Of a DNA stretch of 64,000 nt, positions 60,281 to 63,100 are shown piece by piece. Below the pieces are notes generated by a model. It ran no database searches, was not told the DNA's origin, and worked only from the letters and a program-made list of their open reading frames with translations. Made by a program: the position numbers and the translations under genes. Location: positions 62,001 to 126,000 of the forward strand of contig NTXX01000016.1 in the NCBI GenBank assembly GCA_002559145.1. Direction: 5' to 3'. This DNA comes from Bacillus sp. AFS006103. Lineage in GTDB: Bacteria; Bacillota; Bacilli; Bacillales; Cytobacillaceae. The first letter of the stretch is position 1; each line of letters begins with the position of its first letter.

Positions 60281-61030
60281 ATGAACGGAAATATTCATTC
60301 AATTGAAACATTAGGGACAGTCGACGGACCAGGAATCCGTTATGTAATTTTCACACAAGGCTGCCTTTTAAGGTGCCAGTTTTGCCATAATGCTGATACT
60401 TGGGAAATCGGCACTGGCAAAGAAATGGCTGTTTCCGATATCATGGATGATCTTATGTCCTACCTCCCTTTTATTCAATCTTCGGGCGGAGGAATTACCG
60501 TAAGTGGCGGGGAACCATTGTTGCAAATTCCTTTCTTAACGGAATTGTTTAAGGAATGCAAAAAGAAAGGAATTCATACGACCATTGATTCATCCGGTGG
60601 CTGCTTTTCCCATTCCAAGCTTTTTATCGAACAGCTTGAAGAACTCTTGCAGTATACCGATTTGGTTCTTCTTGATTTAAAGCATATTAATCGGAAAAAG
60701 CATATCCAATTAACTGGAATGGCTAATGATCATATTCTAGAATTTGCAACGTTTTTATCAGACCATCAAGTTCCAATATGGGTACGTCATGTGCTTGTCC
60801 CTACCGTTACCGATGAACCGGAAGATCTAGAAAAACTTGGCGAGTTCATTGGTACACTTAAAAACGTCCAAAAGATTGAAATCTTGCCGTATCACAAACT
60901 CGGAGTGTATAAGTGGGAAGCACTTGGACATGAATATCAACTTAATTCTGTTGAACCCCCTAGCGAAGAAAAAGTCGAGTTTGCTTATAAATTGATTACA
61001 GCACACTGGAAGGCACCGATCGAACACTGA
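60281..61030 (+). CDS. pflA: Pyruvate formate-lyase activating enzyme
   Basis: 249 residues. Radical SAM motif Cys28-x3-Cys32-x2-Cys35 (GCLLRCQFC) and SGGGITVSGGEPLLQ (SAM-binding GGE) are present. It makes the glycyl radical on PflB with SAM and reduced flavodoxin. Its start lies 57 bp after pflB; AAGGGGGATCATCATC precedes the ATG. The stop codon lies at the start of a terminator. Confidence 0.95.
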   Translation: MNGNIHSIETLGTVDGPGIRYVIFTQGCLLRCQFCHNADTWEIGTGKEMAVSDIMDDLMSYLPFIQSSGGGITVSGGEPLLQIPFLTELFKECKKKGIHTTIDSSGGCFSHSKLFIEQLEELLQYTDLVLLDLKHINRKKHIQLTGMANDHILEFATFLSDHQVPIWVRHVLVPTVTDEPEDLEKLGEFIGTLKNVQKIEILPYHKLGVYKWEALGHEYQLNSVEPPSEEKVEFAYKLITAHWKAPIEH

Positions 61031-61056
61031 TTCACTACTGAATCAGTGTTTTTTTA
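61023..61056 (+). terminator. Terminator of pflBA
   Basis: AACACTGATTCA pairs with TGAATCAGTGTT and is followed by seven T; the stop codon is in the left arm. Confidence 0.9.
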
Positions 61057-61139: not shown

Positions 61140-61168
61140 TTGATTCTTTTTCCTATCTCAGATATACT
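61140..61168 (+). promoter_or_regulatory. Sigma-A promoter of the mifM-like/yidC2 operon
   Basis: TTGATT (61140-61145), 17-nt spacer and TATACT (61163-61168) lie 34 bp before the leader gene start. Confidence 0.75.
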
Positions 61169-61201
61169 CATATCATTGACATTTAAGTGAGGTGATAATA
61201 T

Positions 61202-61495
61202 TTGTTTCAATTGCTTATTGATAGTTCAGATATCAATGCCCTAAACGCACTATACGTAAGTATCTTTTTAGGAATCGCATTAAAATTATTATGGGCATGG
61301 AGTGTGGAATATTCTTTCGTTGGTTCCTTATCTGATCCGGCTAGGACAAATATTACTCACCCATTAGTTCTTTACCGAAAGAAAAGTTGTTTAAATGGAA
61401 GCTTCATTCTGAAAAGAATTGTTATATATTTTCGTAGAAAAGAATATTCTCAGGATGATACCGAAGAACCTATTTCCTCCCTTTTCGCTTATTAA
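61202..61495 (+). CDS. mifM: MifM-like translation-arrest leader peptide upstream of yidC2
   Basis: 97 residues, TTG start with GAGGTGATAATAT upstream. One membrane helix (about 12-38, NALYVSIFLGIALKLLW) is followed by a tail with RIVIYFRRK (72-80) and an acidic cluster DDTEE (85-89). B. subtilis MifM, a ~95-residue sensor of membrane insertion, has the same layout: N-terminal helix, RITTWIRK-like arrest motif and acidic stalling sites near 85-89. The codons for I91-S93 plus one base form the anti-Shine-Dalgarno sequence that hides the yidC2 site. It ends 28 nt before yidC2. Overall sequence is divergent, so homology rests on layout and position. Confidence 0.7.
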   Translation: MFQLLIDSSDINALNALYVSIFLGIALKLLWAWSVEYSFVGSLSDPARTNITHPLVLYRKKSCLNGSFILKRIVIYFRRKEYSQDDTEEPISSLFAY

Positions 61496-61524
61496 ATATA
61501 TTCACAACATTTTAGGAGGAAATA
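61471..61524 (+). promoter_or_regulatory. Hairpin hiding the yidC2 ribosome site
   Basis: TATTTCCTCC (61471-61480, inside the leader gene) is perfectly complementary to GGAGGAAATA (61515-61524), which contains the yidC2 Shine-Dalgarno and the A of its ATG. A ribosome stalled at the DDTEE codons (61454-61468) would cover and open it. Confidence 0.85.
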
Positions 61525-62318
61525 TGAAAACAAAACGATCTTCACTATTACTATTCTCACTGCTTGGCTTAACAACATTATTATTATCAGCTTGTTCATC
61601 TCAAGCACAAAAAGGAACGAACAATACTGGATTTTTCCAACATTACGTTGTCAATCCTTTTTCAATATCTATCCATTCCGTTGCGGAATTCTTTAATGGA
61701 AACTACGGCTTAGCGATCATTCTTGTTACTATAATTATCAGACTTGCGTTAATGCCGTTAATGCTTAGGCAGTATAAGAATCAAATGGGTATGAAAGAAA
61801 AGATGGATGTCTTAAAGCCTGAAATGGACGTTATTCAAACAAAGATGAAAACGGAAAAGGATGCTAAGAAGAAACAAGAACTTCAAGCTGAAATGATGGG
61901 CCTTTATAAAAAGCATGGTGTTAATCCATTAAATATGGGCTGTTTGCCATTGATCATTCAAATGCCTATTCTGACTGGCTTCTATTATGCGATTCGCGGT
62001 TCACAAGAGATAAAAACCCACGAGTTTTTATGGTTTAGTCTGGGAAATCCGGATATCATTATTACAATTATTGCTGGGGTTATATACTATTTTCAGTTCA
62101 AAGTTTCCCAGTCCAATATGCCTTCTGCACAGCAAGCCCAAATGAAATACATGGGATTAATGTCACCCTTAATGATTGTCATGTTTTCTTTTAATGCTCC
62201 TGCAGCCCTGCCTCTTTATTGGGTAGTTGGCGGTACATTCTTAATTGTACAAACAATGATCAGCAAAGCCCTTTATCAAACGAATAAGACACCGAAAGTT
62301 CAAGTTAAACAAAAATAA
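61524..62318 (+). CDS. yidC2: YidC2/YqjG membrane protein insertase
   Basis: 264 residues. A lipoprotein signal ends in LLLSACSS. Five helices follow with the conserved positively charged groove residue (IIIRLALMPLML, Arg) and GCLPLIIQMPILTGFYYAI; the charged coiled loop (KEKMDVLKPEMDVIQ) is typical. It inserts and folds membrane proteins. The start at 61524 is set by AGGAGG at 61514-61519 and by the sequestering hairpin. Gram-positive bacteria have SpoIIIJ (YidC1) and this inducible YidC2. A terminator follows. Confidence 0.9.
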   Translation: MKTKRSSLLLFSLLGLTTLLLSACSSQAQKGTNNTGFFQHYVVNPFSISIHSVAEFFNGNYGLAIILVTIIIRLALMPLMLRQYKNQMGMKEKMDVLKPEMDVIQTKMKTEKDAKKKQELQAEMMGLYKKHGVNPLNMGCLPLIIQMPILTGFYYAIRGSQEIKTHEFLWFSLGNPDIIITIIAGVIYYFQFKVSQSNMPSAQQAQMKYMGLMSPLMIVMFSFNAPAALPLYWVVGGTFLIVQTMISKALYQTNKTPKVQVKQK

Positions 62319-62327
62319 ATTTTTTGT

Positions 62328-62359
62328 AAAAAAGAAGCATCTTCGGATGCTTCTTTTTT
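62328..62359. terminator. Bidirectional terminator
   Basis: AAAAAAGAAGCATC pairs with GATGCTTCTTTTTT across TTCG, between convergent genes. Confidence 0.95.
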
Positions 62360-62711
62360 ACATCTTCCTTCCTAACCAAAGCCCACAAAAAGCAAGTATG
62401 ATCCCTATCGTGTAACTGCTTAGCAAATAACCGTAATACAACTTTTTCTTATTTTCTTTATTAAGTTTTATGGCATCAAGCATTAAGGTTGAAAACGTCG
62501 TAAACGAGCCCATAAATCCAATTCCCAACAAAGAATATAAGGACCCCTGCACATGTAAACCGAATAAGAGACCTAAAAGAAAAGCACCAATTAAATTGAC
62601 TGTTAGCGTACCAATAGGAAAACCTTTGTTATTGTGCATTGATTGGTTAATTATAAAACGGGCAATTGCCCCTATAAACCCCCCAATTGAAATAAATAAT
62701 ATCTCTTTCAT
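62358..62711 (-). CDS. crcB2: Fluoride channel subunit (CrcB/FluC), second gene of pair
   Basis: 117 residues, four helices. GGFIGAIARFIINQ, GTLTVNLIGAFLLGLL and GFMGSFTTFSTLMLD are FluC signatures (the Phe box and the Na+ site region). FluC exports fluoride; paired genes give heterodimers. It overlaps the upstream gene by 4 bp, with AAGGAGCG before the ATG. Confidence 0.9.
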   Translation of the reverse strand: MKEILFISIGGFIGAIARFIINQSMHNNKGFPIGTLTVNLIGAFLLGLLFGLHVQGSLYSLLGIGFMGSFTTFSTLMLDAIKLNKENKKKLYYGYLLSSYTIGIILAFCGLWLGRKM

Positions 62712-63100
62712 AGAACGCTCCTTGTTTTATTTACTTGCTCACCAAGTTTCATTCCCACCTTAACAAAATAGAGTCCCCCTAATAAACTAGCAAATAAATA
62801 AAGGACACCAAATATGATTTTTCCTGTTTCAAATAAATGAACCGTTTCAAAGCAAAATGTTGAAAAGGTTGTATATGAACCAATGACACCAGTGGTAAGT
62901 GCAGTCTTCAGATACGGATGAAACTTATTGGAACCCACAAAATAATTTGTCATAAAACCAAGCAAAAAGGCACCAGTTACATTAATAAAAAGGGTTCCGA
63001 TTGGAAATTCCTTTCCCCAGATTGCCACTGCCATTACTGATAATAAATAGCGGAACAAACTGCCGGCGATCCCACCCAGTCCAACCAAGAAATAAATCAC
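62708..63100 (-). CDS. crcB1: Fluoride channel subunit (CrcB/FluC), first gene of pair
   Basis: 130 residues, four helices. GGIAGSLFRYLLSV, GTLFINVTGAFLLGFM and GVIGSYTTFSTFCFE are FluC signatures. It starts with GTG after GGGGTG. The partner gene follows with a 4-bp overlap, so the functional channel is probably a heterodimer. No fluoride riboswitch consensus was recognised upstream. Confidence 0.9.
   Translation of the reverse strand: MIYFLVGLGGIAGSLFRYLLSVMAVAIWGKEFPIGTLFINVTGAFLLGFMTNYFVGSNKFHPYLKTALTTGVIGSYTTFSTFCFETVHLFETGKIIFGVLYLFASLLGGLYFVKVGMKLGEQVNKTRSVL

Follow-up and report, generated by a model that had tools for sequence, protein, structure and literature searches.

MifM is an experimentally established system. 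In Bacillus subtilis, MifM stalls its own ribosome to turn on yqjG, the gene for the back-up insertase YidC2. The B. subtilis arrest sequence is given as RIXXWIXXXXXMNXXXXDEED (PMC7897499), and a large family has been described, with 572 MifM sequences reported from 592 Firmicutes genomes (PMC10987492). The clostridial CliM is likewise an arrest leader before a second yidC, with a membrane segment and a stem-loop over the yidC2 start (PMC13183943). Here we describe a leader upstream of yidC2 in a 64,000-nucleotide stretch of Bacillus sp. AFS006103 (contig NTXX01000016.1, positions 62,001 to 126,000 of the forward strand; the window), a genome that belongs to Neobacillus. An earlier note, made from the letters of the window alone, had read this leader as a MifM-type switch. 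That reading is supported by homology, gene context, the spacing from membrane segment to arrest module, and a conserved leader peptide whose RNA carries an arm covarying with the yidC2 ribosome site. We put the probability at about 0.92 that this leader represents MifM in Neobacillus, as its orthologue, and that, by analogy, it acts as an arrest switch for yidC2.

A probable MifM orthologue upstream of yidC2

The leader frame is 97 codons long, as the earlier note had it, and ends in a TAA (61493-61495) 28 nt before the yidC2 ATG (Table 1). The single membrane helix was also correctly called: the best 19-residue segment, judged by hydropathy alone, spans residues 17-35 with a mean of 1.78. 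Acidic residues precede this segment and basic ones come after it, which suggests an N-out/C-in orientation. The RIVIYFRRK motif (72-80) and the acidic DDTEE (85-89) lie where they had been placed, and the downstream gene is indeed yidC2, the second YidC of the genome; the first is SpoIIIJ-like, as in B. subtilis, and the two share 46% identity.

The locus resembles B. subtilis MifM-YidC2 in having a reading frame that precedes a second yidC, a single membrane segment near the N terminus, an arrest module that aligns without gaps over 31 columns, an acidic block, and an anti-Shine-Dalgarno (anti-SD) arm just past that block. The arm itself differs, being TATTTCCTCC in the window leader and GTTCTCTTCTTTT in B. 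subtilis MifM, each fitting its own ribosome site. The window leader also differs in its TTG start, in carrying R72 for W73, F68 for R69, R79 for M80 and K80 for N81, and in having DDTE for DEED. TTG is the start in 59/60 Neobacillus leaders, and GTG in the remaining one, behind a strong ribosome site. CliM differs in that its arrest depends on K65/W69 and alpha-helical regions (PMC13183943).

Profile comparisons indicate that the leader is very probably a relative, and an orthologue, of MifM. The profile of the window's family (A2) matches that of Bacillus (A4) with a probability of 93.3% and an E value of 2.8e-7, and the alignment is ungapped from residues 63-93 to 64-94, an offset of exactly one. 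A leader from genus g26 (Bacillus), L233 in genome G609, has all the MifM residues named in PMC4423224: H68, R69, I70, W73, I74, F78, R79, M80, N81, S82, DEED 86-89, A90, G91, and S92. (L233 has 95 codons if started two codons upstream of the start chosen by our script.) Judged by these alignments, homology to MifM is secure through intermediate genera only, not directly.

The features by which PMC10987492 sorts MifM sequences, as far as they could be applied here, are all found in the window leader. It lies 28 nt before a yidC homologue on the same strand, hydropathy alone gives an N-terminal segment followed by a soluble part of over 30 residues, and homology to MifM comes from the A2-A4 comparison. 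The 5-residue window DDTEE has a charge of -0.8 by counting; the published criterion asks for less than -0.3 in such a window placed within residues 70-100. From the end of the membrane segment to the acidic block there are 53 residues, the same as the genus median; PMC10987492 gives a median of 54 by its own, different measure. In Pfam and NCBIfam, the leader had no family match; against PDB, a single-sequence search gave one chance match (E 0.99) and the family profile none; and an Rfam search gave four sub-threshold matches, none inside the leader. A literature search pairing Neobacillus with MifM found nothing; Neobacillus leaders may already be among the 572 sequences of PMC10987492. The kind of switch is known, and Neobacillus adds a member with a genus-wide altered arrest motif.

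Predicted pairing between the leader and the yidC2 ribosome site

The 10-nt complementarity to the yidC2 ribosome site pointed out in the earlier note is present, and the minimum-energy fold of 61440-61540, the region it had proposed for folding, holds the 10-bp stem between the two arms. The stem is kept when 61175-61600 is folded. All 60 Neobacillus leaders can pair with the yidC2 ribosome site, without gaps, over 6-12 consecutive bases (counting G-U) within the 27 nt that follow the acidic block. We compared each pairing with synonymous recodings of the leader (300 draws per locus; the loci are related, so these tests are not independent). The cognate pairing beats recoding at p<0.05 in 50/60 Neobacillus loci, 24/39 loci from other genera of the family, and 48/58 other loci; one of the 40 other-family loci and three of the 61 further loci were dropped from this test, with no SD found.

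The arm also changes together with its target. Taking the first member of each genus or subclade label (labels set in this analysis) as 26 clade representatives and permuting ribosome sites among species, we obtained a mean cognate energy of -14.7 kcal/mol, compared to -11.63 (sd 0.40) for permuted pairs; none of 20,000 permutations was as good, and the same 0/20,000 was found with 35 divergent loci. Cognate pairing exceeds the representative's own non-cognate mean in 23 of the 26. Codon choice in the arm is strongly skewed: Ser92 is TCC in 53/54 cases (background 62/435), Phe93 is TTC in 24/24 (62/321), Leu93 is CTC in 7/7 (39/654), and Ile91 is ATT in 44/44. As judged from this synonymous usage, the arm codons are selected for pairing. 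The acidic block keeps a nearly constant distance to the SD (44-55 nt, sd 2.28), whereas that from the stop codon varies from -1 to 27 nt (sd 7.2), which would tie the arm to the stall and not to termination. A stem that sequesters the yidC2 ribosome site, its 5' arm lying within the leader close to the predicted stall as in MifM, is therefore well supported by these comparisons. The covariation of arm and SD extends the support for the published switch mechanism, by comparison among genomes, far past B. subtilis.

Several observations weigh against our interpretation. As single folds, both regions are unremarkable relative to shuffled sequences (61440-61540, z -1.42, 16/200 as good; 61175-61600, z 0.50, 68/100 as good); it is the comparison across genomes, and not the single fold, that raises the pairing above chance. 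The recoding test misses p<0.05 in 10/60 Neobacillus, 15/39 other-family and 10/58 other loci, and three representatives (L153, L171, L173) pair with their own ribosome site no better than with those of others. A profile built from Neobacillus alone reaches just 8% probability against Bacillus. The leader also departs from RIXXWIXXXXXMNXXXXDEED, with 3/10 positions identical (I69, I73, D85), and changing such residues of MifM impairs stalling in B. subtilis (PMC4423224).

Could yidC2 be controlled by simple translational coupling, any ribosome at the leader end opening the hairpin with no regulated stall and no importance of the peptide sequence? The arm lies within the leader coding sequence and the genes are only 28 nt apart, so a translating ribosome would melt the stem as it passes. 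This would not account for the conservation of the peptide, in which Arg78 and Lys80 are found in 60/60 leaders and the acidic residues are nearly invariant. Compared with the window leader over codons 2-84, the others differ 1175, 767 and 2058 times at codon positions 1, 2 and 3 (ungapped, 58 sequences), and it is the acidic block, not the stop codon, that holds its distance to the SD; we consider coupling alone very unlikely. Conservation over the whole peptide, together with the good membrane segment, might instead speak for a small membrane protein with a function of its own, co-transcribed with yidC2, the pairing being a by-product. The synonymous-codon bias in the arm and the arm-SD covariation among clades argue against this, as does the co-occurrence of the leader with a second YidC (described below: among genomes without a profile match, 8 have a single YidC and 13 of the 16 others have a leader-like frame), and we give this idea hardly any credence.

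In the MifM-type arrest switch that we favor, stalling and force sensing are predicted by analogy with MifM. When no ribosome is on the leader, the arm would pair with the yidC2 ribosome site and yidC2 would be off. At low SpoIIIJ/YidC activity, the growing leader chain would not be drawn into the membrane, residues 68-88 would grip the exit tunnel, and the acidic DDTE would disturb the peptidyl transferase center. The ribosome would then stall with its P site on roughly codons 88-91, the counterparts of the MifM stall positions 89-92 (PMC6037786, PMC4423224). With its leading edge near 61478-61488, the stalled ribosome would cover the 5' arm, leaving the ribosome site free, and YidC2 would be made. 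Insertion of the N-terminal segment into the membrane would pull on the chain and end the stall, and repression would return.

The predicted arrest module of Neobacillus leaders

In the gap-free register, F68, I69, R72, I73, F77, R78, R79 and K80 of the leader correspond to R69, I70, W73, I74, F78, R79, M80 and N81 of MifM, and D85-E88 to DEED 86-89. RIVIYFRRK thus aligns with MifM W73-N81. We also considered aligning RIVIYFRRK with R69-I70-x-x-W73-I74, which has the same local R-I-x-x-aromatic spacing. We rejected this register because the acidic block would then fall short by 4 residues, while the one that equates R72-I73 with W73-I74 is gap-free and returned by the alignments, and because the R72 column has W in 36/40 loci from other genera of the family.

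Among the 60 Neobacillus leaders, R78 and K80 are invariant; the other residues are present as follows: I69 in 58, R72 in 59 (H once), I73 in 58, R79 in 53 (K in 6, T in 1), D85 in 52, D86 in 58, and E88 in 54. In the 40 loci from other genera, the R72 column has R in 2, F in 1 and K in 1 besides the W noted above, and the N81 column has K or R in all 40. The 45 g26 loci (one genome counted twice) have W and M80 throughout and K for N81 in 27. These columns vary across the family and g26, which argues that the literal B. subtilis motif is not the family signature; the common core, from the same alignments, can be written approximately as [W/R]-I-x-[K/R]-x-[I/F/V]-R-x-[K/N]-x4-acidic. The earlier note had suggested that the motif may be a new variant. 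What it saw is a divergence shared by the whole genus, inside a family whose large size has already been reported.

Differences on the side of the tunnel do not account for the altered motif. The uL22 tip, RPRAMGRAS, is identical in the window genome and G609, and their uL4 loops show 2 differences over the 42 positions shown, so compensating changes in uL22 or uL4 are not supported. This comparison covered 21 genomes, with uL4 read in 20 (in G106 it was split into two matches). Dozens of diverged natural MifM sequences are thus found in one genus, with residues judged important in B. subtilis replaced and the tunnel tip unchanged, making it testable which contacts the arrest peptide really needs. 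As a separate observation, Q replaces M at the M90 position of uL22, reported to determine the species specificity of MifM, in 5/21 genomes (L267, L269, L271, L272, L275). All five have a MifM-type leader.

Codon usage within the module is suggestive of a further RNA element. In Neobacillus, codon 84 is CAG in 36/45 Gln cases and AAG in 8/10 Lys cases (44/55 together), compared to CAG in only 10/58 for Gln3 of the same leaders. This preference yields AGGATGAT, whose AGGA ends 7 nt before codon 88. Among positions of the Neobacillus leader (sd 0.52), codon 84 shows the largest synonymous deviation toward the anti-SD, at -1.44 kcal/mol, with codons 58 (-1.24) and 33 (-1.05) close behind. In the family, the maximum falls at codons 82-83 (-0.76, sd 0.31); in g26 it falls at codon 81 (-1.89, sd 0.79), and codon 24 is near (-1.77). 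A quick tree built from the 60 leaders has 9 changes of state at codon 84 and 6 at codon 3. The MifM-stalled ribosome of B. subtilis has an 8-bp SD-like mRNA helix, deemed insufficient alone for pausing (PMC4423224). A stall-stabilizing role for AGGATGAT is hinted at by these biases. We tentatively entertain, as an idea that is rather doubtful at present, that in Neobacillus, MifM stalls in a tunnel of the B. subtilis kind by rewired contacts (Arg for W73, basic residues for M80/N81), aided by the selected SD-like element keeping the stalled ribosome in register; this would be a second natural solution, used genus-wide.

Distribution and genomic context

The leader is present in 60/61 Neobacillus genomes. 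When named genome contigs were scanned using the genus alignment, 47 loci were found, in records from Neobacillus (29), Bacillus (16), a Paenibacillus sp. (1) and a Bacillota metagenome-assembled genome (1); the closest species-named match is N. drentensis (98%). The genus profile detects the leader in 92/151 genomes of the family. At E<=0.001, A2 matches 14/398 genomes of the class in a scan whose sensitivity is low because at most 12 candidates per genome were scored; two of these matches (L188, L189) look like chance. Built without any g26 sequence, A2 reached two g26 leaders at E about 5e-5. When these two were added to the query, all 44 g26 genomes matched (weakest best match E 2.8e-8), as did 51/80 genomes of the family of g26 at E<=0.001 and 67 at E<=1.

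A yidC gene comes next on the same strand in 161/161 leader loci from 160 genomes (one genome counted twice): 60/60 in Neobacillus, 40/40 in the rest of the family, and 61/61 further loci. We examined 24 genomes that lack a profile match, 20 of 59 in the family and 4 of 29 (E<=0.001) in that of g26. Eight have a single YidC and 16 have more than one; in 13 of these 16, we found by eye a divergent leader-like frame directly upstream of the second yidC, which in one case (G072) has an in-frame stop. In G065 (L326), the leader upstream of yidC2 is split into two overlapping frames and yidC2 is open. G078 has two full YidC copies (48 and 45%) besides a fragment of 42 residues; all but one of the copies were inspected. 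The leader and a second YidC go together.

The sole Neobacillus genome without the leader is G059. There, a leader-like ribosome site and TTG TTC CAG run directly into the yidC2 coding sequence (LFQ-QYLVDPF...; L250, reverse complement from about 1486). The leader and the yidC2 signal sequence therefore appear to be gone, with yidC2 apparently expressed from the start of the leader; provided that the assembly is correct, G059 is a natural bypass of the switch.

Table 1 Features of the leader-yidC2 locus in the window.
Feature	Position	Strand	Basis
Possible promoter of leader and yidC2, sigma-A type, TTGATT-17-TATACT	61140-61168	+	Sequence match
Leader ribosome site gaggtga	61189-61195	+	Sequence; GAGGTG-like site precedes nearly all genus leaders
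Leader frame, probable mifM orthologue, TTG start, 97 aa	61202-61495	+	Reading frame, profile comparisons
N-terminal membrane segment, codons 17-35	61250-61306	+	Hydropathy; orientation inferred from charges
Predicted arrest module F68...R72-I73...F77-R78-R79-K80...D85-D86-T87-E88-E89, codons 68-89	61403-61468	+	Alignments, conservation
Possible SD-like AGGATGAT within arrest codons	61452-61459	+	Codon bias, suggestive
5' arm (anti-SD) of predicted sequestering stem	61471-61480	+	Folding, pairing comparisons
3' arm, covering the yidC2 ribosome site and the A of its ATG	61515-61524	+	Folding, pairing comparisons
yidC2, 264 aa	61524-62318	+	PF02096, E 5.7e-45
Strong intrinsic terminator behind yidC2	62325-62362	+	17-pair stem, T tail

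Upstream of the leader, a radical-SAM gene (pflA-like; PF04055, E 5.2e-23) ends at 61030, with a hairpin and T run at its end (61023-61056) that was seen by eye and is not in the list from the terminator scan. One transcript probably carries both leader and yidC2; sigma-A-like matches such as the one in Table 1 are no more frequent than in shuffled sequences (6 found, 5.4 expected). Downstream of yidC2, on the minus strand at 62358-63100, are two adjoining frames for small membrane proteins (117 and 130 aa) that resemble a CrcB/FluC pair.
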